Shown here piece after piece: positions 6,620 through 53,025 of a DNA stretch of 58,730 bases. Both the position numbers and the translations under genes were made by a program. The stretch is from positions 1 to 58,730 of the IMG/VR virus record IMGVR_UViG_3300008110_000203; one strand, given 5' to 3'. Numbering within the stretch: position 1 is the stretch's first letter; every line of letters starts with the position of its first letter. The notes below the pieces were generated by a model. That model ran no database searches and had not been told where the DNA came from. It worked only from the letters and a program-made list of their open reading frames with translations. The stretch is from a virus.

Positions 6620-6654
6620 CGACTATAGTGGTGCGTAAAAACCAAAGGTGAGGA

Positions 6655-38140: not shown

Positions 38141-38320
38141 CTGGTGTTTACCGGTATTGCCCTGTGTTTACCGGTATTTCCTTGTGTTTACCGGTATTTC
38201 CCTGTGTTTACCGGTATTGCCCTGTGTTTACCGGTATTTCCTTGTGTTTACCGGTATTTCCCTGTGTTTACCGGTATTGCCCTGTGTTTACCGGTATTGC
38301 CCTGTGTTTACCGGTATTTT
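38141..38320. repeat. Nine tandem 20-bp iterons, candidate origin of replication
   Basis: Nine copies of a 20-bp unit, core TGTTTACCGGTATT, are arrayed head to tail. Each contains the palindrome TACCGGTA. Spacer bases vary in a pattern that repeats every 60 bp, so larger units were duplicated. Because 20 is not a multiple of three, all frames show repeated peptides that are artefacts. Position between a primase-helicase gene and a strand switch suggests an initiator-binding origin. Partition or operator function is possible. Confidence 0.8.
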
Positions 38321-39296: not shown

Positions 39297-39815
39297 TTAA
39301 CCCTTTATGGATTTGAGATTGGAAAGATAGTCCGCATTTCTGCGGGCGATATGCTGCCGGTGTCCGGCCGTCTCTGTTGGTTCCGGCTTTTTGCCGTTGC
39401 CTAGTTCTGTCAGGTCTTTGTTCGTGTTTTCTTTGGGTGTCGTCTTCCTCCTAGCTAGTTGGTGAAGGGTGGCGTAAAGCCGTTCAATGCTGCATAAGCT
39501 TTTCCGGGTCTTAAAACACCTAAGGAAAGTTTGCGCAACTAGTGCTGTTTGCTGGTAGTCGTCTCGAGGGCAGATTTTCCGGGCAGTGGAGTAGACTTCC
39601 CCCCAGTCAATCCAGTCTGCTGGCAGAATCGGCAATTCGCCAGATAGTTCCAAGTCTAAAAGTCTGCCGATATGTTCCCCCTTTCGTAAGTCAGGTCGGT
39701 TGCAGTTCCCCGGTCTGCCACATTCATCGACCGTCGGCAGGGGAAGTCTACACTCTTTCCCCCTCCCACACAACGGAAAGCAAAACATTTCCCGAAACAG
39801 AGAAAAAACGTTCAC
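39297..39815 (-). CDS. Hypothetical Cys-rich protein
   Basis: The protein has 172 aa with a GTG start. Five Cys residues lie in the first 40 residues (FCFPLCGRGKEC, DECGRPGNC), suggesting zinc binding. The middle is helical (EVYSTARKICPRDDYQQTAL, FLRCFKTRKSLCSIERLYAT). The C-terminus is basic. It is co-transcribed with the coiled-coil gene 4 nt downstream. The exact start is uncertain, because a later Met also fits. No family was recognised. Confidence 0.55.
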   Translation of the reverse strand: MNVFSLFREMFCFPLCGRGKECRLPLPTVDECGRPGNCNRPDLRKGEHIGRLLDLELSGELPILPADWIDWGEVYSTARKICPRDDYQQTALVAQTFLRCFKTRKSLCSIERLYATLHQLARRKTTPKENTNKDLTELGNGKKPEPTETAGHRQHIARRNADYLSNLKSIKG

Positions 39816-39975
39816 TATGGGTGTGCGTTTGTCACCCGTAGGGGTGACACCCGGCCTTACGGGTTACGTGCGCGGTCGGCGAGGGAAACCCGAGCGGCTG
39901 CCCAGAAAGCGGGACGCCTAAGAGGCCGGTCGGAAAGCGGATGCGTAACGCGTCGCCCAGAAAGCGGATGCGTAA
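39816..39975. promoter_or_regulatory. Divergent region before the plus-strand array
   Basis: This region separates the leftward Cys-rich gene from the rightward gene array and must hold at least one rightward promoter. A 7-bp hairpin (GTCACCC, GTAG, GGGTGAC) lies at 39831-39848. The unit GAAAGCGGATGCGTAACGC occurs twice in tandem (about 39931-39975) and runs into the first leader element. No consensus promoter is obvious. Confidence 0.35.
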
Positions 39976-40055
39976 CGCAGAAAGCAGGTCGTTTGCAGTA
40001 TGGTCCCGGCGACGCTGTGTCGCCGGGTTTTTGTGTTCCAGTAGGGAGCTTTGTT
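39976..40055 (+). promoter_or_regulatory. Leader element 1 (family 1)
   Basis: The order is a conserved box (CGCAGAAAGCAGGTC), GTTTGCAGTATG, then a 9-bp hairpin (CCCGGCGAC, loop GCTGT, GTCGCCGGG), five Ts, TTCCAGTAGGGAG as the Shine-Dalgarno region, and the ATG at 40056. Similar elements precede most genes to 47600. Confidence 0.85.
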
Positions 40056-40640
40056 ATGGGAACAGATGATTCTGGACGGCTTTTGGGTTGTGCGGTCGAA
40101 ATGGCCCTCCTCAAGCGCGATCAAAAGGACCGGTTGTCATGGTCGGCGGGGTATACCAACCGCGTTACGGTCATCGGCCCCAACAACCTCGTTACAGGAG
40201 GCTACGACACCTTTTACACGAGCAGCGAGCAGATGTTGCGCCGCAACCTCGGGCCGCTTTCGGAACGGTTGTCGGCTGCGGAAGTTGACATGTGCGTGTT
40301 GCCCCTGTGTGATAGGAAACGCCACCTGCTTACTGCCGACGGGTTTCCCGGGAAACACGTACTGAGATCCCTGCATCGTGAACCTGGGGCCGATGCGAGT
40401 TTTTGCGCAGCCGATTTGGTGGACACCACTGACTCTGCGGTGATGGACAACTTCTGGCTTAACGCCCGGAACAAACTCCGCGAGCGTTACAAGTGGTCGC
40501 AGGGCCAGTTCACAATGATTGACGCACTGGACGGGGTGTACGACGAGCCGACTAAGGGCACCCCTTATGTGTGCGTTTTTAGGAGTAGCGGGCGTTTGTC
40601 TACCCTCGTTCGGTCTAAATCCATTCTGATCATCAAGTGA
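40056..40640 (+). CDS. Hypothetical array protein, paralogue of the next gene
   Basis: The protein has 194 aa and begins MGTDDSGRLLGCAVEMALLK. It shares with the following gene a VTVIGPNNLV strand, a Tyr/Ser-rich segment and a late block NKLRERYKWSQGQFTMIDAL, so the two are diverged duplicates. The C-terminus is beta-rich (RSKSILIIK). It has no recognised family. As first gene of the leader-bounded array it is probably expressed early. Function is unknown. Confidence 0.65.
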   Translation: MGTDDSGRLLGCAVEMALLKRDQKDRLSWSAGYTNRVTVIGPNNLVTGGYDTFYTSSEQMLRRNLGPLSERLSAAEVDMCVLPLCDRKRHLLTADGFPGKHVLRSLHREPGADASFCAADLVDTTDSAVMDNFWLNARNKLRERYKWSQGQFTMIDALDGVYDEPTKGTPYVCVFRSSGRLSTLVRSKSILIIK

Positions 40641-40736
40641 CTCGTGGCCGTGTAAGGCGAGCGTGTGATAGACAGCCGCTGCGGCGGCTGTCGTTCGTGT
40701 GCTTTCCGTTTTTGTGTTCCAGTAGGGAGCTTTGTT
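40641..40736 (+). promoter_or_regulatory. Leader element, family 1b
   Basis: GTGTAAGGCGAGCGTGTG is followed by a 9-bp hairpin (GACAGCCGC, TGCG, GCGGCTGTC) and GTTCGTGTGCTTTC, and then by the same SD tail as leader 1 (TTCCAGTAGGGAGC). The first part recurs at 41558. The element is therefore a hybrid of a different hairpin with a family 1 SD tail. Confidence 0.75.
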
Positions 40737-41264
40737 ATGTCCGAGGAAACTGAGGCGTGCCCGTTTACGGAGCGATGGGGCGTCAACCGGATCAAAATGG
40801 CCCGTAAGGGGTATACGCTCATCGTCACCATGATCGGGCCTAAAAGCCTGATCAAAGACGGGGTAGATTCAATCTACGTGAAGAACGGTAGCGATATGAT
40901 GGACTGGCTTAAGGACTACCACCCTACCGTCCACCACAGCCCGGCGGCGCGTGAGGCACAGGGGGTGACCGTCTCTTACGAACACCTCGACGCCTTTACC
41001 GGCCCGAACGTTCGGCCCATCGACGACGCGATCCTGATCTGGCGTCTGGTGGATTTCAACAACCCAGACGCTAAGGGTAATCCGTGGGTAACCATGCAGA
41101 ACGCCTTGAGGGAGCGTTTTGGGTGGACCAACGGCCACTTTACGTCGATCGAGTCTCTTACAGGGGTTGACTACAGCGCCCCTGAAGACGCCGTGTATGG
41201 GGTCAGGTTCCGTAAGGAGCACATCAAGGGTGCGGAAACGAAAAACCTGCTGATCCTCTGCTAA
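40737..41264 (+). CDS. Hypothetical array protein, paralogue of the previous gene
   Basis: The protein has 175 aa and begins MSEETEACPFTERWGVNRIK. VTMIGPKSLIKDG and NALRERFGWTNGHFTSIESL align with the preceding protein, while the middle differs. Tandem duplication followed by divergence is the likely origin. It is probably soluble and acidic. No known family or catalytic motif was seen. Confidence 0.65.
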   Translation: MSEETEACPFTERWGVNRIKMARKGYTLIVTMIGPKSLIKDGVDSIYVKNGSDMMDWLKDYHPTVHHSPAAREAQGVTVSYEHLDAFTGPNVRPIDDAILIWRLVDFNNPDAKGNPWVTMQNALRERFGWTNGHFTSIESLTGVDYSAPEDAVYGVRFRKEHIKGAETKNLLILC

Positions 41265-41344
41265 CGCGGAAAGCAGGTCTTCGGCAGTTCTTCCCGGCGA
41301 CGCTGTGTCGCCGGGTTTTTTGCGGTTCCATTATGGAGTTTGTC
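41265..41344 (+). promoter_or_regulatory. Leader element 2 (family 1)
   Basis: Directly after the stop codon come GCGGAAAGCAGGTC, then TTCGGCAGTTCTT, the CCCGGCGAC/GTCGCCGGG hairpin, six Ts and TTCCATTATGGAG before the ATG. Confidence 0.85.
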
Positions 41345-41557
41345 ATGGCAACGTTGACCCCAGCTTACGGACGTGATTACACGAGGGCAGACGCAGCCCG
41401 CGAGGCATTTCTCGCGGGTAAAGATTTCATCTTTAACGAGGTCGGCAGTCGCTGGGATGGAAAGCCCTGTTCGATCCGTGACTTCAAGGCGGACGAAACG
41501 CCCAGCGTGACGATCCGCTACAACCACCTCAGATCGTCGATCGTCGTCGATCTGTGA
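41345..41557 (+). CDS. Small hypothetical array protein
   Basis: The protein has 70 aa and begins MATLTPAYGRDYTRADAARE. The DYTRADAAREAFLAGKDFIF helix is followed by a beta hairpin (PCSIRDFKADETPSVTIRYN) and ends SSIVVDL. It has no recognised family. The start is fixed by the leader SD. Confidence 0.55.
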   Translation: MATLTPAYGRDYTRADAAREAFLAGKDFIFNEVGSRWDGKPCSIRDFKADETPSVTIRYNHLRSSIVVDL

Positions 41558-41639
41558 CGTGCGTGTAAGGCGAGCGTGTGATAGACAGCCGCTGCGGCGG
41601 CTGTCGTTCGTGTGCTTTCTTTCCACTAAGGAGAAACCA
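41558..41639 (+). promoter_or_regulatory. Second family 1b leader
   Basis: This is almost identical to 40641-40710 (same GACAGCCGC hairpin and flanks), but its SD tail differs: CCACTAAGGAGAAACCA before the ATG at 41640. Confidence 0.75.
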
Positions 41640-42242
41640 ATGTGTGAGTACTGGGCTGATAAAGACGGGTGCGTGACGTACTGCGACGGCGATGCTGGTG
41701 CTGACGTGGCCAACCACGAGGGTGTGGCCCGCCAGCACGCGGCGCGTAACGTGGCGGATGCGTTGCAGTCTTTGAGCGGCGACGAACCTCTGGTGGACGC
41801 CATCAACCGTGTGTTTACGGACCACATCAATCACGATGGGGTTCTGGATTGTACCGCTTTGCGTTGCGATTTAGGAAACCTCGACGAATTCGCTGGCGAT
41901 GAAACCCCGGTTGAGGCGATCACGCGCCTTACGGGGCTGCCTGAGCTGGAGGTTCGGTTTGCGCTGCAGGCCGAACCCACTGACGAGGACGTGAGGCTCT
42001 ACGCGATGCGTGTGTGGGGTTGGCACCGCATCGTGTGCAAAGGCTCGTTTTATACGATTGAGAGCTGGAAAGTGTCCCGCTCTCTTATCAAGATGATGTA
42101 CTACGTGATCGGCGAGATTGAGGACGAATGCGGCGTTACCTCGCCTACGTGGACGTGGTACGTGAGGGGTAACGGGAGGCGGTTTGAGATCGCCAACGCG
42201 GACATGGAGGCTGGGATTATCCCCCGCGCTGAGGTGTCCTAA
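41640..42242 (+). CDS. Hypothetical array protein
   Basis: The protein has 200 aa and begins MCEYWADKDGCVTYCDGDAG. It is acidic with helical repeats: LSGDEPLVDAINRVFTDHIN and FAGDETPVEAITRLTGLPEL look like two related helical units. The later part contains SFYTIESWKVSRSLIKMMYY and a beta end. Three Cys residues lie within the first 15 residues. No family was recognised. Confidence 0.6.
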   Translation: MCEYWADKDGCVTYCDGDAGADVANHEGVARQHAARNVADALQSLSGDEPLVDAINRVFTDHINHDGVLDCTALRCDLGNLDEFAGDETPVEAITRLTGLPELEVRFALQAEPTDEDVRLYAMRVWGWHRIVCKGSFYTIESWKVSRSLIKMMYYVIGEIEDECGVTSPTWTWYVRGNGRRFEIANADMEAGIIPRAEVS

Positions 42243-42321
42243 CGCGGAAAGCAGGTTGTTTGCAGTATGTCCCGGCGGCACTGTGTCGCCGGGTTTTTGT
42301 GATTCCATTATGGAGTTTGTT
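42243..42321 (+). promoter_or_regulatory. Leader element 3 (family 1)
   Basis: It has the same order as leader 2, with one base change in the stem (CCCGGCGGC / GTCGCCGGG) and five Ts. The SD tail is GATTCCATTATGGAG. Confidence 0.8.
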
Positions 42322-42618
42322 ATGGGTCTGGGAAAAAAACCGCTTCCTAAGGTGGAATACGTCACCGGAGACTACCGGTTGGTTTCAAACGATGCCACGC
42401 GTGTTGTGGGCAGGCGGGGGCAGGATGAGATGGGCTATGGCCTTGCCATCACCACGGGCATCGTGCTGCAGTTCGCCGAAACGAAGCGAAAGCATCATGT
42501 GTATTGCACGTGCTTTAGCAACATCGGGTCGCTGTGGATCAAGGTGAAGGGCAAACGCCTTTACTTGGGCACCGTGTTTAGCAGTGACCTCAAAGAAACC
42601 TTTTATGCGGGAGACTGA
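42322..42618 (+). CDS. Small hypothetical array protein
   Basis: The protein has 98 aa and begins MGLGKKPLPKVEYVTGDYRL. It is basic and beta-rich (VLQFAETKRKHHVYCTCFSN, LWIKVKGKRLYLGTVF), consistent with a small nucleic-acid-binding or protein-inhibitor fold. No family was recognised. The next gene starts 1 nt after its stop. Confidence 0.55.
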   Translation: MGLGKKPLPKVEYVTGDYRLVSNDATRVVGRRGQDEMGYGLAITTGIVLQFAETKRKHHVYCTCFSNIGSLWIKVKGKRLYLGTVFSSDLKETFYAGD

Positions 42619-42619
42619 T

Positions 42620-42892
42620 GTGTCCGAGAAGCAAGAGATTACGCTGCACTTCCCACACCTCCCGCACTACGTGAGGGCAGTAGCGACAATCGTCAAAGAT
42701 GAATTCGAGCGGGAGGGTGGGGGCGTATCGGTAACGGTATACTCAGACATACACGTCCCTAAAGAGACCAAGATGGACATGGGCTGGTCATACCACTTTT
42801 TCCGCGATCGCCGTAACGAGTTCATGTCTGATGTTGCGGGCTTTATGATCAAGATTTATGGTCTGACGCCCATGCCTACGCGGTACTGGTGA
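42620..42892 (+). CDS. Small hypothetical array protein
   Basis: The protein has 90 aa with a GTG start (MSEKQEITLHFPHLPHYVRA), supported by GGGAG 6 nt upstream inside the end of the preceding gene. It contains DMGWSYHFFRDRRNEFMSDV. It is the only gene in this part without its own hairpin leader, so it is translated with the gene before it. No family was recognised. Confidence 0.5.
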   Translation: MSEKQEITLHFPHLPHYVRAVATIVKDEFEREGGGVSVTVYSDIHVPKETKMDMGWSYHFFRDRRNEFMSDVAGFMIKIYGLTPMPTRYW

Positions 42893-42972
42893 CGCGGAAA
42901 GCAGGTCGTTTGCAGTCTCTCCCGGCGACGTTGTGTCGCCGGGTTTTTTGCGGTTCCATTATGGAGTTTGTC
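42893..42972 (+). promoter_or_regulatory. Leader element 4 (family 1)
   Basis: GCGGAAAGCAGGTCGTTTGCAG is followed by the 9-bp hairpin with loop GTTGT, six Ts, and TTCCATTATGGAG before the ATG at 42973. Confidence 0.85.
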
Positions 42973-43278
42973 ATGGATCTCAATAACGTAGAGTTCCCCG
43001 AGCGGTTCGTTAGGACAGCGGGTGAGTGGTACGGCGGGCAGGGCTGCATCCTGTACGCGGTGAGTTCTACGGGCGGTCTCACCCGTGGCAGCATCAGGCC
43101 GGACTTGTGCGATGATGACGGGAACTACACGCCCGCTACGGATGAGGCGTGGATCAGATACTTGTGGGACGAGCTGGACATCACGCCGAGTTCTGCTGTA
43201 CTGGAAGTGCGCTCGGTGCGGGCGTTACGTGAGTGCCACAGGGTCCGCCATTCAGGAGTCGGGGATTCCGCTGTGTGA
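42973..43278 (+). CDS. Small hypothetical array protein, possible frameshift near the end
   Basis: The protein has 101 aa and begins MDLNNVEFPERFVRTAGEWY. From about 43200 the +1 frame looks more protein-like: YWKCARCGRYVSATGSAIQE, then IPLCECAETS and VGVSVKR, ending at 43345 with a zinc-ribbon-like set of Cys residues. Either a ribosomal frameshift, a recent mutation or a sequencing error joins the two frames. The native product may end at 43345. Confidence 0.5.
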   Translation: MDLNNVEFPERFVRTAGEWYGGQGCILYAVSSTGGLTRGSIRPDLCDDDGNYTPATDEAWIRYLWDELDITPSSAVLEVRSVRALRECHRVRHSGVGDSAV

Positions 43279-43326
43279 ATGCGCTGAAACCTCGTATGAC
43301 ATGGTGTACGTTGGCGTCAGCGTAAA

Positions 43327-43407
43327 GCGGAAAGCAGGTCGGTAGCAGTCTTTCCCGGCGACGTCGTGTCGCCGGGTTTTTGTTTTGTTCTACTAAGGAG
43401 CTTCGTT
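43327..43407 (+). promoter_or_regulatory. Leader element 5 (family 1)
   Basis: GCGGAAAGCAGGTCGGTAGCAG is followed by the hairpin with loop GTCGT, five Ts, and TTCTACTAAGGAGCTTCGTT before a GTG start. Confidence 0.85.
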
Positions 43408-43974
43408 GTGGGATCGTACTTGTTTCAAACCTTGTTTGCGATGAACAACCAGGGTACGGTTAAGGAGTTGCTTGAAGGGGCGTGTGACGGGGGTGAAGCC
43501 TCGCACGGACTTGCGAAAGTCGAGATGTGCTACTCAGGAACCCTGTCTTACGAGCACGTAAGGTTCACGGTTGCAGACGGGCACGTCACCTTCCGAGGGA
43601 AGCGTCGTAAGATAGAGCGACAGCCCGGCGGTGAGTTTATCCGCCAGCCCAACGAGAGCATGGACGACTTCTGGGAAAAAGCCCTCAAGTTTGCGAAAGC
43701 GGAATACAAAAAATTTCGGCAGCATGACACGCGACACCCATCTCACACAGCGTCTATGGTCCTGTCGAGCACGGAACGGTTTTTCCCCGAGCTAAAGACG
43801 CACGGGGTGGAGGGGTTTGCCCTCGATGCGGGTGGGCGTGATGGCCTGACATACCTCAACACTGGCGATACGTACCAGAGGACGATCCTGTTCAGGTCAA
43901 AATCAGAGCGTATGTGGCTCGGAAGTTGGGGTGACTTTGTTGAGAGTAACCCGAAGCTGTGCGGTAACGGGTAG
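43408..43974 (+). CDS. Hypothetical array protein
   Basis: The protein has 188 aa, starting at GTG 43408 (MGSYLFQTLFAMNNQGTVKE). Two beta hairpins (YEHVRFTVADGHVTFRGKRR) surround a basic helix-rich centre (KALKFAKAEYKKFRQHDTRH). The C-terminus ends in WLGSWGDFVESNPKL. It has no recognised family. It may start at Met11, but the leader SD fits the GTG. Confidence 0.6.
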   Translation: MGSYLFQTLFAMNNQGTVKELLEGACDGGEASHGLAKVEMCYSGTLSYEHVRFTVADGHVTFRGKRRKIERQPGGEFIRQPNESMDDFWEKALKFAKAEYKKFRQHDTRHPSHTASMVLSSTERFFPELKTHGVEGFALDAGGRDGLTYLNTGDTYQRTILFRSKSERMWLGSWGDFVESNPKLCGNG

Positions 43975-43980
43975 CGTTTA

Positions 43981-44064
43981 CGCAGAAAGCAGGTCGTTTG
44001 CAGTAGGTTCCCGGCGACGCTGTGTCGCCGGGTTTTTTGTTGTCGTTCCATGAAGGAGTTTGCC
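43981..44064 (+). promoter_or_regulatory. Leader element 6 (family 1)
   Basis: CGCAGAAAGCAGGTCGTTTGCAGTAGG is identical in its first half to leader 1. It has the 9-bp hairpin with loop GCTGT, six Ts, then TTCCATGAAGGAG before the ATG. Confidence 0.85.
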
Positions 44065-44631
44065 ATGTACATGGTTGGTTTCTACGGTCGTCCTATCGGT
44101 TCCGACGGGGTTGTGCGTTGGATCTACACGCACATCAACAACAATCCAGAGAAGTTTGCTGAACGAGACTGCCCTGACGACGATCCGGCGATGCTGGAGA
44201 TTTATTCCAGGTATGAACACATCTCCGGGTTCACGAGCGTTTCTCACGCTCGTTACGTGCTGGTATCCCTCGCGGACGACAAGAAAGTTCTCGAGAAGGT
44301 TGAGCCGTCCGTGATGTTTGTTGTGAACGATGCAGGAGACGGGCGTGCTTGGTCCGAGAGCGACCGCCGGCAGGGCATTCAACCGTTGGACCGCGTCGTA
44401 CGGTGGCCGGCTCGGTACAGCGCCGATAGGCCCCTCGACGCCCGGTTTTGGGTGGCTGTGGTTGTTAGGAGTTTCCTCCCGAACACCCGGATTGACGACG
44501 ACTGGGAGGCCATGCTGCTCGCCCTCGACTACCTGTTTGAGATGCGGGAGAAAGACCCAAAGTTAGACAAAATCTGTGGCCGCTCGGGGTTGCCCGGGTA
44601 CGCCTTGCAACCGATACAGTTGCTCGTCTAA
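44065..44631 (+). CDS. Hypothetical array protein
   Basis: The protein has 188 aa and begins MYMVGFYGRPIGSDGVVRWI. It is an acidic alpha/beta protein with a HARYVLVSLADDKKVLEKVE segment and a C-terminal helix (WEAMLLALDYLFEMREKD). No active-site motif was seen. No family was recognised. Confidence 0.6.
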   Translation: MYMVGFYGRPIGSDGVVRWIYTHINNNPEKFAERDCPDDDPAMLEIYSRYEHISGFTSVSHARYVLVSLADDKKVLEKVEPSVMFVVNDAGDGRAWSESDRRQGIQPLDRVVRWPARYSADRPLDARFWVAVVVRSFLPNTRIDDDWEAMLLALDYLFEMREKDPKLDKICGRSGLPGYALQPIQLLV

Positions 44632-44716
44632 CGCGGAAAGCAGGTCCTCGGCAGTATGTTCCCGGCGACGTTGTGTCGCCGGGTTTTTTGCAATTCCATT
44701 ATGGAGTTCCCTCGCT
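44632..44716 (+). promoter_or_regulatory. Leader element 7 (family 1)
   Basis: After the stop come GCGGAAAGCAGGTCCTCGGCAGTATG, the hairpin with loop GTTGT, six Ts, TTCCATTATGGAG and an unusually long spacing to the ATG at 44717. Confidence 0.85.
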
Positions 44717-45364
44717 ATGTCAGAACATCTCATCGTAAGTATTGGCAGTGATTATTGTGAGAACCCAGCAGAGTCTGGATGCAACTGGCGGTTGATTAGC
44801 TACAGCACGCGGCACGCCGCTTTCGAGCACCCGGACAAGCTGTTTAATGTCACCCGTGAAAACGGCTGGCTCGTGTTCAACCCCCGCGAACTGGGCTTGC
44901 GACGCCGCCTCGACGTGGGGCTGGCGTTTCACTTGTCCTACTACGAACACGGCCTGTGTAGCTGGTTCCGTAAAGGCAACGGTCGGCCCGGCACAAACTG
45001 TCGGTTCGATGGCGTTACCTACGCCGGCCTGCTGGTGTTCGAGCACGGACCTGCCGCCATCGGCTCTAAGACGTACGCTGAACGAGCGGCGGACGCTGAC
45101 AGGTTCCTCGAGCAGTACACCGACTGGTGTAACGGGAACGGGCTGTCTGTCGATGTCCGCACTAACACCGGCGAATACGTCGATGGGGGTTGCGGCGGGT
45201 ACTACGGCAGCGACTACAAGACCGCGGTCAACGACGCCGTAGGGGTTGTCTCTGACCTGATCGCGCAGGGTATGCCGTGGACTGTGTCCCCGGAGTCTCT
45301 GCACGAGTACGAACTCAATGCAGCCCTCAGGAAATTGTTCCCAACGCAGGAGTACAAGGCATGA
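44717..45364 (+). CDS. Hypothetical array protein
   Basis: The protein has 215 aa and begins MSEHLIVSIGSDYCENPAES. The domain contains aromatic-rich loops (HLSYYEHGLCSWFRKGNGR, DGGCGGYYGSDYKTAVNDA) and a C-terminal helical tail. It heads a run of four genes joined by ATGA overlaps. No family was recognised. Confidence 0.6.
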   Translation: MSEHLIVSIGSDYCENPAESGCNWRLISYSTRHAAFEHPDKLFNVTRENGWLVFNPRELGLRRRLDVGLAFHLSYYEHGLCSWFRKGNGRPGTNCRFDGVTYAGLLVFEHGPAAIGSKTYAERAADADRFLEQYTDWCNGNGLSVDVRTNTGEYVDGGCGGYYGSDYKTAVNDAVGVVSDLIAQGMPWTVSPESLHEYELNAALRKLFPTQEYKA

Positions 45365-45576
45365 TTTCCTTCCGGGTAGGCGAGAAAGTGTGGGTGGGGC
45401 CTAACCGCACGCGGGTTGGAGAGCCCGGCTACTACGGCACCGTGACAGCGGTGCATGCCGCAACGAGCGGGCGGTTTGTGTTTAGTGTCCGGCCAGACGA
45501 CACCCCAGACATTCTGCGACTGGTAAGTCTACACCACCTTAGGGGTATTCCAAAACACGAGGAGAACGAGTCATGA
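45361..45576 (+). CDS. Small KOW/SH3-like protein
   Basis: The protein has 71 aa and overlaps the previous stop as ATGA. FRVGEKVWVGPNRTRVGEPG, with a following YYGTVTAVH strand, is the pattern of small SH3/KOW barrels found in RNA polymerase or ribosome-binding proteins. It is followed by a related gene. A role in host transcription or translation control is an inference. Confidence 0.55.
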   Translation: MISFRVGEKVWVGPNRTRVGEPGYYGTVTAVHAATSGRFVFSVRPDDTPDILRLVSLHHLRGIPKHEENES

Positions 45577-45800
45577 GTGAGCAGCGTAAATCCCCTGCAG
45601 TAGGCGAGCGTGTACGCGTTCGGCCCTACACAGTACCGGGTCATGAACAGCCCGCGTATTCCGGGACTGTGGGTCACGTTCACGGGCCCGATGAGGCGGG
45701 TCGTTACTTGGTAGGTTTGGACCGATGCTCTGGCGATAGGGGGCAGTCGCGGGTGGAGTGGTTGCATTTTATCTCAGGATATGAAGGGCACAGATCATGA
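45573..45800 (+). CDS. Small KOW/SH3-like protein, paralogue
   Basis: The protein has 75 aa and begins MSEQRKSPAVGERVRVRPYT. VGERVRVRPY, then AYSGTVGHVHGPDEAGRYLV, parallels the preceding protein, so this is a tandem duplicate. It overlaps both neighbours by ATGA. Confidence 0.55.
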   Translation: MSEQRKSPAVGERVRVRPYTVPGHEQPAYSGTVGHVHGPDEAGRYLVGLDRCSGDRGQSRVEWLHFISGYEGHRS

Positions 45801-46270
45801 ATAGTGAGAAGAAACCCAGCACTGTACGTGTGAAGTGCTACGACGCCGGTGATGGTGTCTTAGACAGGTACGTAGTGTTCTTTTCCGGTAGCACGCGGAG
45901 GTGGTGTTCGAGTTCGGTGGCCATGTCTTCGAACCCTCACCACCCGCAAGGGTTTTGGTGTTCAGCAGGGAACTCAACTATCGGCAAACACCTCGGAAAA
46001 CGGGTCGCGTTTAGTGAATTGCCGGAGGCGTGTCAAACAGCGGTATGCCAGTACCTCGTACTCAATGTCGCAAGCACCGCGGTTCTTGCCCCCCACGTCA
46101 TTGACGCCTGCGGGATCAAACGATTCTGCGTGGGGCGCATAGACCAGCGTCCAGTGTACGGAAACAAACGCCGGCGATGGTTCGCTACCGAAGATCAGGC
46201 GGAACAGTTCTTGGGCACTCTCCCGGAGGCCGACGTGGCTGCCGGGCTGTACTATCTCGAGAGGAGGTGA
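45797..46270 (+). CDS. Hypothetical phage protein
   Basis: The protein has 157 aa. The N-terminal half (YDAGDGVLDRYVVFFSGSTR, then SSNPHHPQGFW) matches a recurring phage family of unknown function that I recognise by the DRYxVxF and NPxHPQGF pattern. The C-terminal region (GRIDQRPVYGNKRRRWFATE) is basic. It may be two domains. It overlaps the previous gene by ATGA. Confidence 0.6.
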   Translation: MNSEKKPSTVRVKCYDAGDGVLDRYVVFFSGSTRRWCSSSVAMSSNPHHPQGFWCSAGNSTIGKHLGKRVAFSELPEACQTAVCQYLVLNVASTAVLAPHVIDACGIKRFCVGRIDQRPVYGNKRRRWFATEDQAEQFLGTLPEADVAAGLYYLERR

Positions 46271-46274
46271 TTCT

Positions 46275-46595
46275 GTGGAAGGTCTTGAGTGTTACGTAAT
46301 TCAGATGGACTTTAAGGCCTTGAAAGGCCTTGAGGATAGCCTCAAACCGGTGTTTTTCAAACGGTTCAAGGGCGAAGACATTGACAACGGTCCGACAGAA
46401 CTCGGCGACATAACGCAAGCACACCGCTTTGCGACGGCTGGCAATGCGGTGTCAACAGTGCGTCGATTGTTGAACAACCCGTCAGTGTGCAATGACACGC
46501 TGGACTCTTACGAGATCTCTATTCGCAAGCTGGTGTGTGGGGTTGCAATGTCCGCACGTTTGTCGGACGACGGTCGAGTTTCACTCTTTGGATGA
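46275..46595 (+). CDS. Small hypothetical array protein
   Basis: The protein has 106 aa with a GTG start after a strong GAGGAGG site. It begins MEGLECYVIQMDFKALKGLE. Helical segments (VSTVRRLLNNPSVCNDTLDS) precede a beta end. No family was recognised. Confidence 0.55.
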   Translation: MEGLECYVIQMDFKALKGLEDSLKPVFFKRFKGEDIDNGPTELGDITQAHRFATAGNAVSTVRRLLNNPSVCNDTLDSYEISIRKLVCGVAMSARLSDDGRVSLFG

Positions 46596-46601
46596 AAGGC
46601 G

Positions 46602-46835
46602 GTGCGTGTGAGAACTTTTGACGAAGAGTTGTTTGACGAGCGTGTAAATGAGGCCGAACATGAAGCACGCGAACTGTTCGAAGCGATCACTACGCTGGCG
46701 GACCCCGAGTGTTACGCGAAAGAGGACAGCCGGCTGGGTCAAATCGCAGAAGTTATGGGCGGGTTGGTGAGTTTGACGACCGCGGTTCGCAAACTCGTCC
46801 GAGCCGGACGCATAACGCAGAAAGCAGGTCGGTAG
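46602..46835 (+). CDS. Small acidic helical array protein
   Basis: The protein has 77 aa with a GTG start (or the GTG two codons later). It is highly acidic and helical (FDEELFDERVNEAEHEAREL). Its last eight codons run through the conserved box of the next leader element (ITQKAGR), showing that the element was inserted or retained across a stop codon. No family was recognised. Confidence 0.5.
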   Translation: MRVRTFDEELFDERVNEAEHEARELFEAITTLADPECYAKEDSRLGQIAEVMGGLVSLTTAVRKLVRAGRITQKAGR

Positions 46836-46899
46836 CAGTATGTTCCCGGCGACGCTGTGTCGCCGGGTTTTTTGTTGTCGTTCCATGAAGGAGTTTGTT
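46816..46899 (+). promoter_or_regulatory. Leader element 8 (family 1)
   Basis: CGCAGAAAGCAGGTCGGTAGCAGTATG is followed by the hairpin with loop GCTGT, six Ts, and TTCCATGAAGGAG before the ATG. The first part codes for the end of the preceding protein. Confidence 0.85.
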
Positions 46900-47514
46900 A
46901 TGTCAGATCACCACGCAATCACACTCACCCCTCCCATGCTGGCCCACGCAAAGGCCTACGCTTGGGCCCACCATGTCAGCACCATTCTCGTGCCCGATAT
47001 GCGGACCGTTTGTGAGAATTTCCTCGGCAAGAAGGTGCTCAAGGTGGATGGCACGTTCGGTAAGGCGTTTACCGGCATGGTAAACGATGCGGTGAGGGAC
47101 AACGTGACTAACCTCCCGCATGTCGATAAGGAGCGACCGGACGACCCGAACACTACCCGGTTTGTCCGGGCACTGCTGCGGTTCTGGAGGTCGGGTGCTG
47201 GCTGTGGTTCAATATACCTGCACGTGACAGCCACAGCCCACGCCGGCGGTGAAGGCGGTCGGTTCGACCACAATGAGTACAACATCTGCGAGACGCGGCT
47301 CGGGGCCGTTACGCATCTTACGCTCTCTGAGATTGAGTGCAATGTGTCTCCTCTTAACAACCCAGCGAGGGAGGGGCGGCTGGCCACGCCGCTGCTCGAG
47401 AAGCAGTTGGCCGACTACAACGCCGCAGTCGCGGAGTTTGAGGCGATGCGGGAGCGTGTTGATGGGCTGCGTCACGACATCAAGCACCTGCTTTTTGGCA
47501 ACAGCAAGTGGTGA
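46900..47514 (+). CDS. Hypothetical array protein
   Basis: The protein has 204 aa and begins MSDHHAITLTPPMLAHAKAY. A His-rich start is followed by a globular middle (HVTATAHAGGEGGRFDHNEY) and a C-terminal coiled coil (LEKQLADYNAAVAEFEAMRE). No catalytic motif was seen. No family was recognised. Confidence 0.6.
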   Translation: MSDHHAITLTPPMLAHAKAYAWAHHVSTILVPDMRTVCENFLGKKVLKVDGTFGKAFTGMVNDAVRDNVTNLPHVDKERPDDPNTTRFVRALLRFWRSGAGCGSIYLHVTATAHAGGEGGRFDHNEYNICETRLGAVTHLTLSEIECNVSPLNNPAREGRLATPLLEKQLADYNAAVAEFEAMRERVDGLRHDIKHLLFGNSKW

Positions 47515-47599
47515 TGCGGGTGGTGATGCGGGTGGTTTATGTGCCCGGCGACACGGTGTCGCCGGGTTTTTTGTTGGTGTTCCAATAAGGAAACGCGTC
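47515..47599 (+). promoter_or_regulatory. Leader element 9, degenerate (family 1)
   Basis: The conserved upstream box is missing and replaced by two copies of GATGCGGGTGGT. The hairpin (CCCGGCGAC, ACGGT, GTCGCCGGG), six Ts and TTCCAATAAGGAAA remain before a GTG start. Confidence 0.75.
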
Positions 47600-47911
47600 G
47601 TGGGAAAACAAACGTTCTTTAACGTGGTCGATGAGCCACATGTTGGGGTCCGAATTGTGGTTGTCGGATACAACTCATGGGGTGCGGGCGGTACTCGAAG
47701 TGAGGCCCTGAAAAACTGGCGGAGGAACGCCCCTCAGGGCGCTCGGGTTGACAAGACCGCCACATACGTAGCCATCGACGAGCGGGTGCTCACCCGCGGC
47801 GACATGCCCGACAACAACTGGGCGGACGTAGATGACCGCAACGCCGCGTGGATCAGCATTGATGACATGGGTCGGGTAAAGATCCGCCACTGCATCGTGA
47901 TCAGGCATTGA
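47600..47911 (+). CDS. Small hypothetical array protein
   Basis: The protein has 103 aa with a GTG start (MGKQTFFNVVDEPHVGVRIV). It is an alpha/beta protein (VGYNSWGAGGTRSEALKNWR, then RVDKTATYVAIDERVLTRGD). No family was recognised. Confidence 0.55.
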   Translation: MGKQTFFNVVDEPHVGVRIVVVGYNSWGAGGTRSEALKNWRRNAPQGARVDKTATYVAIDERVLTRGDMPDNNWADVDDRNAAWISIDDMGRVKIRHCIVIRH

Positions 47912-47943
47912 CCGGGTTCAACTGTTTTTGTAGAATGTCCAAT

Positions 47944-47965
47944 GTGCCGGCGTGTTTGCCGGCAC
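47944..47965 (+). promoter_or_regulatory. Hairpin leader of the csrA-like gene
   Basis: A perfect 8-bp stem (GTGCCGGC, loop GTGTTT, GCCGGCAC) has no family 1 box and no T-run. It lies 24 nt before the ATG. GAAGGAG follows as the Shine-Dalgarno sequence. The gene is therefore led by a different hairpin from its neighbours. Confidence 0.7.
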
Positions 47966-47988
47966 GATTCTTTACGAAGGAGAATGTC

Positions 47989-48171
47989 ATGTTAGTGTTG
48001 AAGCGCAAGCGGGGCGAAAAGATCAGCATCGTGGTTAAGGTTCCGGGGTCCGACACCCCGATCACGATAACGTTGCTGACCCACCTGATAAGCAAAGGCA
48101 GCGTGTCGTTGGGCTTTGAGGCACCTCGCAAATCGGTAACGATCATTCGCAACGAGATCGCGAAGCAGTAA
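47989..48171 (+). CDS. csrA: CsrA-family RNA-binding translational regulator
   Basis: The protein has 60 aa. It begins MLVLKRKRGEKISI and continues ITITLLTHLISKGSVSLGFE, then APRKSVTIIRNEI. This is the full CsrA/RsmA fold with its Leu4, Arg6 and late Arg (here in IIRNEI), which contact RNA. CsrA dimers bind GGA motifs, often at Shine-Dalgarno sites, and block or alter translation. Compared with bacterial CsrA, a 6-residue insertion lies before the ITIT strand. It sits inside the leader-bounded gene array, whose SDs carry GGA. Confidence 0.85.
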   Translation: MLVLKRKRGEKISIVVKVPGSDTPITITLLTHLISKGSVSLGFEAPRKSVTIIRNEIAKQ

Positions 48172-48214
48172 ACTCGCGACGTGTTGATTCTTTCACCCAT
48201 TATGGAGAGCTATT

Positions 48215-48997
48215 ATGGCTGGCGTAGTGTTCTATGAAGGTCCCTCAGCGATCGACGGCAAGCCTATCGTTGCGATAGCGACCACCGGCACTCGCAACAA
48301 GAAGACCGGACCCTTGGTCCAGACGTGGATTCTGAGAGCGGATGTGAGCCCGGTGAATGCCATCAACACTGGTGCTGACAGTAGCGTGTGCGGTTCCTGC
48401 CCTTTGCGGGGGATCATCGCCAACAGTACCCGGGTCAAGAGGAAGAAAGTCAACCGGTTCAGGTCCTGCTATGTGCGGGTTGGTCAGGCACCGAACCAAA
48501 TCTGGAAGGCTTACCGACGCGGTGCTTACCCGACACTCGACGCCCTGTCACCGGCCATGAGGCGGGCTCTGAGGAACAGCCTGCTTCGGCGTGGGTCTTA
48601 CGGTGACCCAGTCGCCGTACCTCGGGCAGCGTGGGACGCCTTGGCGGAGTTGGTCAAACCCGGCAAGCACCCGGGTTACACGCACCAGTGGGACAGTCCG
48701 GCAGCCGCCGGCTGGCAGACGGACCTGATGGCCAGCGTGCAGACGCTGGATGAGCGGGCCCGAGCTGTCGCCGCAGGGTGGCGTACGTTCCGCATCGTCA
48801 AGAGCGTGGACGAGCTGCAGGACGGCGAGATCCTGTGTCCGGCCAGCCCTGAGGCGGGCAGCACAAAGACCTGCGAACAGTGCGGTGCGTGCAACGGTCG
48901 GCGTGACAGCCGAGACCTCCGGCACTCGGTCGCTATCCCCGGGCACGGGTCGCGGTTTGCCGTGCTGCCCAGTCTGCTGCGACTGTTCGACAATTGA
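48215..48997 (+). CDS. Conserved phage protein with Cys motif (DUF7227-like)
   Basis: The protein has 260 aa and begins MAGVVFYEGPSAIDGKPIVA. The family signature is GPSAIDGKPIVAI, then KKTGPLVQTWILR, a VCGSCPLR motif and CYVRVGQAPNQIWKAYRRG. It is a widespread phage and plasmid family of unknown function, usually 230-280 aa. A late CEQCGACNGRR adds a second zinc-type site. The domain number is from memory. Confidence 0.75.
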   Translation: MAGVVFYEGPSAIDGKPIVAIATTGTRNKKTGPLVQTWILRADVSPVNAINTGADSSVCGSCPLRGIIANSTRVKRKKVNRFRSCYVRVGQAPNQIWKAYRRGAYPTLDALSPAMRRALRNSLLRRGSYGDPVAVPRAAWDALAELVKPGKHPGYTHQWDSPAAAGWQTDLMASVQTLDERARAVAAGWRTFRIVKSVDELQDGEILCPASPEAGSTKTCEQCGACNGRRDSRDLRHSVAIPGHGSRFAVLPSLLRLFDN

Positions 48998-49010: not shown

Positions 49011-49038
49011 GGCGGGGGCGAATGCCCCCGCCTTTCTT
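49011..49038 (+). terminator. Rho-independent terminator
   Basis: GGCGGGGGC and GCCCCCGCC form a 9-bp stem around GAAT, followed by TTTCTT. It ends the first part of the array and lies 24 nt before the next gene's ATG. Confidence 0.8.
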
Positions 49039-49062: not shown

Positions 49063-49578
49063 ATGCAAACGAGCATACTCACAATCCGCAACGAGCCCCG
49101 GCTTGGTGAGAACGTACCACGAACGTTTCGCCCCTTTGAAGGGGGACCACCTCGCGACGTCGAGGAGGTCATTATTCGTAAGGAATTTTGTTTTACCAAC
49201 CCTTCTGTGGTAGCAGAGGCAGGTGTAGAGCTGCAATTCTCTGTGGTCTTGCAGTCCCTCCGCAAAAACGGAAGGCCCGAGGTTGTACGCCCATATAGTC
49301 GGATGCATGACCCCCGCGAAATCGAGAAGGACAGGCTGGTGTTTATCCACGCAGATTACTTCTACGACTTTGTGCTGCGGTGGCTTCTTGCCTGCGAGTA
49401 TCGCCTCGCCAACGCTTCTCGGACGACGCAACCCACACTTTGTACAATCCCGTACGACACGGATATTGCCACCAAGGACCGAGAGCTGCATGACGCCGTG
49501 ATTTTCGTTCGTCGGTTCATCACCGACACGCAACGCCACATGAAAGCCCTTGGACTGGAGGTGTCGATTGGATTCTAA
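49063..49578 (+). CDS. Hypothetical protein
   Basis: The protein has 171 aa from the ATG at 49063 (MQTSILTIRNEPRLGENVPR), with TTGGAG upstream. It is a beta/alpha protein with YFYDFVLRWLLACEYRLANA and a late helix. The preceding terminator hairpin replaces a leader. No family was recognised. Confidence 0.6.
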   Translation: MQTSILTIRNEPRLGENVPRTFRPFEGGPPRDVEEVIIRKEFCFTNPSVVAEAGVELQFSVVLQSLRKNGRPEVVRPYSRMHDPREIEKDRLVFIHADYFYDFVLRWLLACEYRLANASRTTQPTLCTIPYDTDIATKDRELHDAVIFVRRFITDTQRHMKALGLEVSIGF

Positions 49579-51461: not shown

Positions 51462-51484
51462 ACCCGCTGCACAGTGCGGCGGGT
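51462..51484 (+). promoter_or_regulatory. Family 2 hairpin leader, copy 1
   Basis: ACCCGC and GCGGGT enclose TGCACAGTGCG. It is followed by TTTCTCGAAGGAGG and the ATG at 51505. It lies in the 80-nt gap after 51424, which otherwise holds nothing obvious. Confidence 0.7.
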
Positions 51485-51504
51485 TTCTCGAAGGAGGAAG
51501 GACA

Positions 51505-51708
51505 ATGCTACAACAGGTGCGGGTAGTGGCGACCGCTGATGGTGTGACACAAGTGCAACAGCGGGTCGGGACGTTTGAGGTTGATGCCTCTGGTGCATTC
51601 TGCGGAGTGCGATGGGCTAAGTGGGAGGCGATGCCGATAGTATTGGTGAGCGAGCTGCTGCCCGATCAGATGGTTGTCAATTCGCTGGGGTTGCAGCACA
51701 GCGGCTGA
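51505..51708 (+). CDS. Small hypothetical protein
   Basis: The protein has 67 aa. It begins MLQQVRVVATADGVTQVQQR after AAGGAGG. It is a beta-rich domain with GTFEVDASGAFCGVRWAKWE. No family was recognised. Confidence 0.5.
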   Translation: MLQQVRVVATADGVTQVQQRVGTFEVDASGAFCGVRWAKWEAMPIVLVSELLPDQMVVNSLGLQHSG

Positions 51709-51715
51709 CACACAG

Positions 51716-51746
51716 CCCCGCTGCACAGTGCGGCGGGTGTGTTTTT
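51716..51746 (+). terminator. Family 2 hairpin, copy 2, terminator-like
   Basis: CCCGC and GCGGG around TGCACAGTGCG, then TGTGTTTTT. The T-run makes this copy the best terminator of the family. The next ATG is at 51769. Confidence 0.65.
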
Positions 51747-51768
51747 AATCGCTTTGGGGGTCGTGACG

Positions 51769-52215
51769 ATGAAGCCGGGTGATTCTGTGAATGAGGGTGG
51801 CTATTCTGTGTGTGAGTCGTCTTTGGGTGTTGGCAGGTGGAGGATCGAACACTGTGTGGTTGGTGAGATTGTGGCTGATGCTGTGTTTGCGTATGACGTC
51901 AGCAACTTCGCCTCTAAGTTTGTGTTCGCCGAAAATGAACTGTTTGTGCGCTGCCGTGTCCTGTGTCTGAGATTCAGGATTGATGACACTGGTGAGGAAG
52001 TGGATGCCGTTTCGCGCATCAAAATGCTGAAGAATGGCGGAAGTGGAAGAGCAGACGCTGAGCTGAAGGAACTGCTGGAGTCTCTGGTGGCCGACGCCGT
52101 CCAGCGGTTCAACGCGTGCTCTGTGCCGCTGATTTGCCGGCAGGCGTGGGCGTCGCACCCGCGGAATCCGGCGAACGCTCGCCGGGTGGCCCGTGATCCG
52201 GAGACTGGGATCTGA
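51769..52215 (+). CDS. Hypothetical protein
   Basis: The protein has 148 aa from the ATG at 51769 (MKPGDSVNEGGYSVCESSLG). It has a beta-rich first half with FRIDDTGEEVDAVSRIKML, a helix (LKELLESLVADAVQRFNACS) and a basic, Pro-containing end. The base composition is poorer in GC than neighbours at the start. No family was recognised. Confidence 0.55.
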   Translation: MKPGDSVNEGGYSVCESSLGVGRWRIEHCVVGEIVADAVFAYDVSNFASKFVFAENELFVRCRVLCLRFRIDDTGEEVDAVSRIKMLKNGGSGRADAELKELLESLVADAVQRFNACSVPLICRQAWASHPRNPANARRVARDPETGI

Positions 52216-52221
52216 GTTTCC

Positions 52222-52250
52222 TTGCTGCGAGTGCGGCGGGGCGTTTTGGA
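52222..52250 (+). promoter_or_regulatory. Family 2 hairpin, copy 3, degenerate
   Basis: The right arm and loop (TGCGAGTGCGGCGGGGC) are kept, while the left arm is weak (CCTTGC, G-U pairs). TTTT follows, and a GAGGGG SD precedes the ATG at 52272. Confidence 0.6.
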
Positions 52251-52271
52251 AAACTATCAGAGGGGTAGATA

Positions 52272-52676
52272 ATGAGTGACGCATACGCAACGACCTACCA
52301 TCGAGATCGGACCGTGACTGTGTGGGATGTGTATTCTCAGCAGTGGTTGAGAACAGGCAACCCGAGCGACCGAGTGCTTGCCAGTCTGTCAGGCAGTGAG
52401 CGGCATCGCGTGGTTCTGCACTGCTCGGGCGTACCGGTGCTGACGAATAAATTCACCACGATCGCGACGATAGCCTACAGCGGCAGCGTGAGTGTCAACC
52501 AAAACAGGGCGGCACATGGGGCGGTGTGCCACCTCCAAGCACGCAAAAAGGCTGATGGCCAGCTCGTCGGTCGTCACGTCAACAGCAACGGACGACACCG
52601 CGAGACCGGTAGAGCTTTCCCGCTCGACGTTGACACGCTGGCACAGTGGCAGCGGATGGACCACTGCTCACGCTGA
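52272..52676 (+). CDS. Hypothetical protein
   Basis: The protein has 134 aa. It begins MSDAYATTYHRDRTVTVWDV, with an AGAGGGG site. It is a beta-rich domain (VLTNKFTTIATIAYSGSVSV) followed by a basic, Arg/His-rich C-terminus. No family was recognised. Confidence 0.5.
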   Translation: MSDAYATTYHRDRTVTVWDVYSQQWLRTGNPSDRVLASLSGSERHRVVLHCSGVPVLTNKFTTIATIAYSGSVSVNQNRAAHGAVCHLQARKKADGQLVGRHVNSNGRHRETGRAFPLDVDTLAQWQRMDHCSR

Positions 52677-52687
52677 CCGACAACACA

Positions 52688-52716
52688 GCCCCGCTGCGAG
52701 TGCGGCGGGGCATTTT
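52688..52716 (+). promoter_or_regulatory. Family 2 hairpin, copy 4
   Basis: ACAGCCCCGC and GCGGGGC around TGCGAGTGCG, then ATTTTG. It lies 14 nt before the ATG at 52730. Confidence 0.7.
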
Positions 52717-52729
52717 GCGAGCAATCATT

Positions 52730-52981
52730 ATGACAACAGCAGCAATGATACCGATGAAGTGGTCAGGCAAAGACACAAACGGCAGCATCGAGCATTGTGT
52801 GTGCTGCGGGCGCAAGCTGACAGGCACGCCGGTGTACGTAGAGGTCATCGACGGCGGCGGGCAGGTCGCTGCTCCCGGCCTCGATCCAGACCAGACCGAT
52901 GCAGGGTATATGGGGTTCTTTCCGGTGGGTCGGCATTGTGCAAAGAAGCATTTTCGAGGATACACGCACGACTCGATTTGA
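52730..52981 (+). CDS. Small zinc-finger-like protein
   Basis: The protein has 83 aa. It begins MTTAAMIPMKWSGKDTNGSI, then CVCCGRKLTGTPVYVEVIDG and a late VGRHCAKKHF. The CxxC with a distal His/Cys suggests one zinc site. Upstream SD is weak. No family was recognised. Confidence 0.55.
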   Translation: MTTAAMIPMKWSGKDTNGSIEHCVCCGRKLTGTPVYVEVIDGGGQVAAPGLDPDQTDAGYMGFFPVGRHCAKKHFRGYTHDSI

Positions 52982-52996
52982 CACAACAACAACACA

Positions 52997-53025
52997 GCCC
53001 CGCTGCGAGTGCGGCGGGGCCTTTT
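52997..53025 (+). promoter_or_regulatory. Family 2 hairpin, copy 5
   Basis: This is nearly identical to copy 4: GCCCCGC, TGCGAGTGCG, GCGGGGC, then CTTTTG and GGGAGG before the ATG at 53042. Confidence 0.7.

Follow-up and report, generated by a model that had tools for sequence, protein, structure and literature searches.

An uncultured freshwater phage with a repeated module of conserved box, terminator-like hairpin and ribosome-binding site before eight small genes or operons

Introduction

The window analysed here, a virus record from IMG/VR, has 58,730 bp (58% G+C), derives from an uncultured freshwater virus of bacteria and encodes a terminase, a portal protein, a serine integrase, a primase/helicase, a helicase, DNA polymerase A and an SSB-like protein. 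Within a plus-strand block of small genes, a module of about 80 bases, consisting of a conserved box, a terminator-like hairpin and a ribosome-binding site (RBS), is repeated and precedes eight small genes or operons. This raises the question of what such a leader does, and whether it belongs to the gene behind it or to the one before it. Start-associated repeats and promoter-terminator cassettes have already been described for mycobacterial, Microbacterium and T4-type phages. Nearly all small array genes tested against Pfam were without a match; the exceptions are a CsrA-like gene of 60 AA at 47989-48171 on the plus strand (PF02599, 42.7 bits versus a cutoff of 27; NCBIfam matches were weak) and one sub-threshold DUF match. 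Neither the DNA of the array region nor the terminase protein gave a match among 50,697 phage records, and the capsid protein, used as a host clue, had no relative in GTDB.

Results

Anatomy and positions of the element

The complete copies of the module, called A elements in the following, were determined by direct reading and by a repeat search, which returned them as direct-repeat families. Eight are present on the plus strand between 39973 and 46899. Their consensus is TAACGC(A/G)GAAAGCAGGTC-N4-GCAGT-N4/5-CCCGGCGAC-RYN-GT-GTCGCCGGG-T5/6, followed by an RBS such as TTCCATTATGGAG and the start codon. The conserved block is opened by TAACGC, which often provides the stop codon of the upstream gene, and closed by an invariant GCAGT; the GC(A/G) box and the GCAG of the original prediction are present within these extended limits. 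TAACG and GCAGT are spaced by 16-17 nt, and the block ends 4-5 nt 5' of the hairpin in every case. The hairpin itself has 9-10 bp with the arms CCCGGCGAC/GTCGCCGGG, a loop of three variable bases (R-Y-N) and a constant GT, and is followed by T5-6. Many A elements occupy the gap from the stop codon to the next RBS.

The hairpin pattern was found at nine sites of the window (18 strand matches), where 0.01 were expected from shuffles, and the box pattern at eight sites, compared to 0 in 100 shuffles. As originally stated, all these sites lie on the plus strand directly 5' of genes. Element 1 (39973-40055) comprises a box at 39973-39999, a hairpin at 40005-40027 and an RBS, and has no plus-strand gene before it; three extra half-boxes GAAAGCGG (at 39905, 39933 and 39960, covering 39905-39978 on the plus strand) run into its full box. 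It is followed by element 2 (41262-41344, hairpin 41293-41315), element 3 (42240-42321, hairpin 42271-42293), element 4 (42890-42972, hairpin 42921-42943), element 5 (43323-43407, hairpin 43354-43376), element 6 (43978-44064, hairpin 44010-44032), element 7 (44629-44716, hairpin 44661-44683) and element 8 (46813-46899, hairpin 46845-46867), the last one before gene 46900. A ninth site on the same strand (47543-47599) is a variant without box, consisting of a hairpin (47543-47567), a T-run and an RBS. Thus, the repeated leaders of the original prediction are real, and of its about nine near-identical elements of ~80 bp, eight are complete and the ninth lacks the box.

The further notion that the same leader stands before each gene holds for the eight full elements only; many other plus-strand genes have different hairpin leaders, namely at 40671, 41584, 47943 and 49011 and, as a second family, at 51.4-53.0 kb. 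The C-type leaders at 40649-40736 (hairpin 40671-40692, before gene 40737) and 41562-41639 (hairpin 41584-41605, before gene 41640) contain GTTCGTG in place of the T-run; their 58-bp duplicate was considered as a part of A and rejected, as it constitutes a separate leader type. A D-type hairpin (47943-47966) precedes the CsrA-like gene and an E-type hairpin is located at 49011-49032. The five F-type leaders (51463, 51717, 52221, 52690 and 52999; 51463-53018) have the hairpin and no box. All of these lie on the plus strand, and the hairpins of all leader types are stable (-18 to -22 kcal/mol), whether a T-run is present or not.

Conservation in related phages

IMG/VR was scanned with the pattern of the element, which gave two contigs with several elements, designated G001 (3300027806_000054) and G002 (3300020198_000019). 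The former is nearly identical to the window, the latter is diverged (integrase 57% and helicase 76% identical). Ten element alignments were found in each. The original prediction had suggested an alignment and a search of related phages, and box and stem proved nearly invariant in both. The alignment of 16 distinct elements from the two lineages has 64 columns, of which 38 are invariant. The nearly invariant arms and varying loop described originally were likewise recovered: all nine stem pairs are paired in 100% of cells, and the loop variation is confined to the R-Y-N before the constant GT. Only two stem changes occur in these elements, both one-sided, and the number of compensatory changes is zero; given the invariant arms, conservation of the A stem is therefore one of sequence and not of structure alone. 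The C-type hairpin before gene 41640 has two adjacent compensatory changes (GACAGCCGC/GCGGCTGTC in the window versus GATGGCCGC/GCGGCCATC in G002).

The independent phage lineages found to carry the A element are two, i.e., window/G001 and G002; the module was not found in the 50,697 phage records. Further box matches in IMG/VR and 31 matches in GTDB are single and without hairpin or RBS, except for one Planctomyces and one Saccharopolyspora record with two copies each, which represent an unrelated local repeat. None of these has several elements; they look like chance, and occurrence of the box in other phages or hosts was rejected. Such leaders are also lacking in relatives that share ~40% identity with protein 48215, and an Rfam search gave 0 matches at the gathering score.

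Two structural candidates were also discarded. An alternative RNA structure or pseudoknot between box, loop and T-run would require the GCAG-UUGY pairing, which is possible in many, not all, elements and shows no compensatory change. For integron attC-like sites, the start of the element resembles R'' (GTCTAAC) in some copies and the GTTRRRY partner is absent.

Association with the downstream gene

The neighbour of element 1, gene 39297-39815, is divergent from it, and upstream of this element only an antisense ORF is open. Since element 1 has no upstream plus-strand gene, it would belong to the downstream unit. Boxes precede units of one to six genes, and the genes within units are without box. 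When orthologous genes of window and G002 were compared, the leader type matched in 5 of 7 pairs, i.e., C before 41640, A before 44717 (where element 7 is kept) and 46900, box-less before 47600 and D, with an identical hairpin, before the CsrA-like gene. The pairs 46602 and 48215 disagree, the latter being preceded by an A element in G002 but not in the window. Because synteny is conserved around 46602-48215, only 44717, which has non-homologous upstream genes, cleanly separates the two neighbours. Both the context of element 1 and the agreement of leader types favour the downstream gene as owner of the element, and the A modules accordingly appear to mark the starts of predicted transcription units.

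Promoters and terminators

Terminator-like sites are frequent in the window (38 versus 14.1 expected) and predicted promoters are few. The A hairpin with its T5-6 is predicted to be a canonical intrinsic terminator. No σ70-like promoter was found in the A elements: they reach 5-7 of 12 matches, which is equalled by 30-100% of shuffles, and a σ70 promoter in the A box was rejected on this basis. The spacing GG-N10-GC of a σ54 promoter does not fit the box either, as judged by eye. A promoter is predicted at 47908-47936 on the plus strand (TTGACC-N17-TAGAAT; TTGACA-N17-TAGAGT in G002), ending 6 nt before the hairpin of the csrA leader. Its hexamers are conserved, its spacer is diverged in G002 and its score is reached by no or almost no shuffle. 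Thus, at least one unit would be ordered promoter, hairpin, RBS, gene, and promoters can precede a leader hairpin. It had been argued that no promoter fits between the terminator and the next Shine-Dalgarno sequence; this is correct for that gap, but the argument against a promoter is weakened by the position upstream of the hairpin. For the A elements, the spacing of TAACG and GCAGT would fit some other class of promoter, which is a conjecture, and the tandem half-boxes before element 1 suggest a binding site at the DNA level.

Gene 39297-39815 was considered as a candidate for the box-binding factor and dropped, as searches in Pfam, NCBIfam and PDB gave nothing convincing. A part of it recalls region 2 of ECF sigma factors by eye; its AlphaFold model was unusable (pLDDT 38.9).

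Recombination and gene exchange

Window and G001 form a mosaic, in which long stretches of 99-100% identity alternate with patches of 84-96%. Gene 49063-49578 is replaced in G001 (53%) directly after the E-type leader and the start codon, and gene 51739-52215 is absent from G001, the junction being inside the F-type hairpin which flanks this gene on both sides. In G002, unrelated genes stand between conserved A elements where the window has its genes of 42322 to 44631. Five pairs of A elements differ between window and G001, and in four of the five the exact match to a non-orthologous element is longer than that to the orthologue (45 versus 31, 83 versus 31, 32 versus 20 and 31 versus 30 bases). 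For instance, the 3' half of element 4 equals that of element 2, whereas the 3' half of its G001 version equals that of element 3; the exact match of 45 bp is to element 2 or 3, and element 6 has its 83 exact bases in common with a non-orthologous G001 element. Element copies thus appear to have recombined with one another, as read from metagenomic contigs in which assembly chimeras at 80-bp repeats are possible. The data for the A elements point to conversion of element sequence, and the clean gene insertion or deletion is at an F-type, not an A-type, leader. The proposed swapping of genes at the elements is supported by the gene content of both relatives.

Discussion

We consider the A elements to be start-associated control cassettes for separate transcription units, which also serve as recombination boundaries, with a probability of roughly 50%. 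By these cassettes, the accessory or early region would be divided up into units transcribed separately. The bipartite box TAACGCRGAAAGCAGGTC-N4-GCAGT would most likely act as DNA, with a regulator of phage or host origin or an RNA polymerase modified by the phage as its binding partner, i.e., it would be a recognition site at the level of transcription, and transcription of the units would begin at or just before the hairpin. The hairpin with T5-6 would stop read-through from the preceding gene as intrinsic terminator and would then serve as 5' stem-loop of the next mRNA, and the RBS would close the cassette at the foot of a small hairpin. The copies, being many and near-identical, would recombine and act as boundaries for gain, loss and replacement of genes. 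For this reading speaks that box and stem are nearly invariant although the orthologous array proteins of window and G002 have only ~39-65% amino acid identity. Thus, the module probably controls genes singly and aids their swapping between viruses, as is thought for known phage repeats.

A more specific version is tentative at best: the box may be the site of an undescribed phage-specific promoter or RNA-polymerase-modification system, by which each accessory gene or operon would be its own unit, with an mRNA capped at its 5' end by the upstream terminator and possibly under post-transcriptional control of the CsrA encoded by the phage.

Less easily fitted to the cassette reading are the F-type leaders, in which hairpin and box are separable, the escape from an efficient terminator hairpin which transcripts begun just 5' of it would need, the lack of a σ70-like promoter in the A elements and the differing leader of 48215.

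Processive or conditional antitermination, in which one long transcript is made and the box, in RNA or as a DNA pause site, sets read-through of the terminators, is rather unlikely. It would explain the constant position of the box 4-5 nt before a strong predicted terminator, the separation of genes by F-type hairpins without box or promoter, and the few predicted promoters. However, box and terminator arms have no conserved alternative fold, N4 varies freely, minimum-energy folds differ among elements and Rfam has no match; moreover, element 1 would be an attenuator ahead of any gene, and the half-boxes at 39905-39960 are in tandem and have no hairpins.

The boxes could also be operators of a temperate phage, on which a repressor silences the units in lysogens, and we regard this as improbable. 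L5 stoperators are such 13-bp repressor sites, which are dispersed, asymmetric and aligned with transcription, with no obligatory hairpin or RBS. The A boxes resemble them in being asymmetric, dispersed and all oriented with transcription; they are also intergenic, form a cluster beside a divergent gene and occur in a phage with a serine integrase. But they are tied to hairpin and RBS, no repressor was identified, and the L5 consensus is near chance in the window (7 versus 3.1 expected), its matches lying away from the elements. Moreover, window and G001 have identical boxes and yet differ in the divergent gene 39297-39815.

It is more improbable still that the main role of the hairpins is in mRNA processing or stability, by protection of the 5' or 3' ends or translational insulation, with the box being a part of the 3' end of the upstream gene. 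Stable hairpins in all leader types, with or without T-run, and the C type without T's would be expected, but the invariant box and the element without an upstream gene are left unexplained. That the repeats are linker homology alone, persisting by recombination without a role in expression, is very improbable: ectopic conversion and junctions at hairpins would fit, but homogenisation within a genome does not by itself explain the same box and stem at the same functional position in a diverged phage, nor that the leader type follows the gene.

The closest known systems in architecture and behaviour are the PeSL (promoter early stem-loop) cassettes and the SAS/ESAS repeats; the A element appears to work like both, with membership established in neither, and is unrelated to PeSL and ESAS in sequence. 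PeSL cassettes are many, near-identical and intergenic, combine a transcription-start function with a terminator stem-loop and are dense among small accessory genes. Each carries a strong σ70 promoter, and recombination between cassettes shuffles genes. They were reportedly found in the T4-type phages RB49 and phi1 by Arbiol et al. (2010) and Comeau et al. (2014). PMC4503421 cites the PeSL work. Near-identical intergenic cassettes among small accessory genes are seen here as well, with a stem-loop which is a terminator by prediction, and so is recombination between cassettes, with the possibility of assembly error in metagenomic contigs. In contrast, the A box has no similarity to σ70 promoters, which only the D-type csrA leader has, and the RBS lies directly 3' of the hairpin. 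Neither the host group nor the phage type is related: the 58.7 kb record is not of a T4-type phage, has a serine integrase and its terminase is without a relative in the phage records.

SAS/ESAS of cluster K mycobacteriophages are gene-start repeats of the non-structural arm with a conserved RBS and an upstream inverted repeat; the ESAS of Adephagia was proposed to contain promoters, and the imperfect ESAS inverted repeat of 17 bp overlaps a SigA-like promoter (PMC3203893, PMC11373665). The resemblance to SAS/ESAS noted originally holds for the architecture, in which a conserved RBS at the gene start has an inverted repeat 5' of it, and for the leader, whose presence usually goes with the gene family. 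It does not hold for the sequence, as the 13-bp SAS GGGATAGGAGCCC matches the window once (1.19 expected) and not at a start codon. Here, a perfect hairpin of 9-10 bp with T5-6 follows a separate box, and SigA-like -35/-10 motifs were not found in the A elements.

The A elements therefore seem to be an independent instance from an uncultured freshwater phage lineage, with a non-σ70 box, a perfect predicted terminator and visible recombination. This lends support to the view that exchangeable modules controlling accessory genes have arisen in phages repeatedly, for which the array is a compact test case. Start-associated and intergenic repeats also occur in Microbacterium phages of clusters EC, EF and EG, those of EC and EG being located 14-30 bp 5' of start codons and conserved while genes change (PMC7302621), and 17-bp palindromes of cluster O have no part in rearrangements (PMC4351075). 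The sequences of all these differ from the A element and, unlike the palindromes of cluster O, the A elements do take part in rearrangements.

Gene starts and leader hairpins

Within the window, the ribosome-binding site (RBS) lies inside a small hairpin in 13 of the 30 plus-strand genes, compared with about 2 expected from shuffled sequences. Such hairpins occur at gene starts between 40056 and 48215 and at the orthologues in the diverged relative G002 (IMG/VR contig 3300020198_000019), the sequence being TCCATTATGGA in the window versus CCCATTATGGG in G002. F-type leaders, hairpins without the box, are present in five copies in the window (51463-53018, plus strand); in G002, ten of them precede tiny genes in a second array (L026, reverse complement, 6297-9390), with an RBS of the TTCTTCTGACTGGGAGTTG type common to the array.

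Gene content of the region

Since the adjacent genes 40056/40737 (within 40056-41264; E = 2e-13) and 45361/45573 (within 45361-45800; E = 2.5e-4) are paralogous, their sequences suggest duplication inside the array. A CsrA-like RNA-binding protein gene (47989-48171, plus strand; PF02599, 42.7 bits), also carried by G002, has a conserved promoter and hairpin leader of its own. The divergent minus-strand gene 39297-39815, which adjoins the half-box cluster, encodes a candidate regulator. Its DNA identity to the nearly identical contig G001 (3300027806_000054) is 87.6%, against 99-100% in both flanks, and the divergence is restricted to the middle of the protein.

At 38144-38318, GTGTTTACCGGTATTGCCCT is repeated in tandem (8.8 copies, iteron-like; about one unit fewer in G001), possibly forming a replication origin or partition site.
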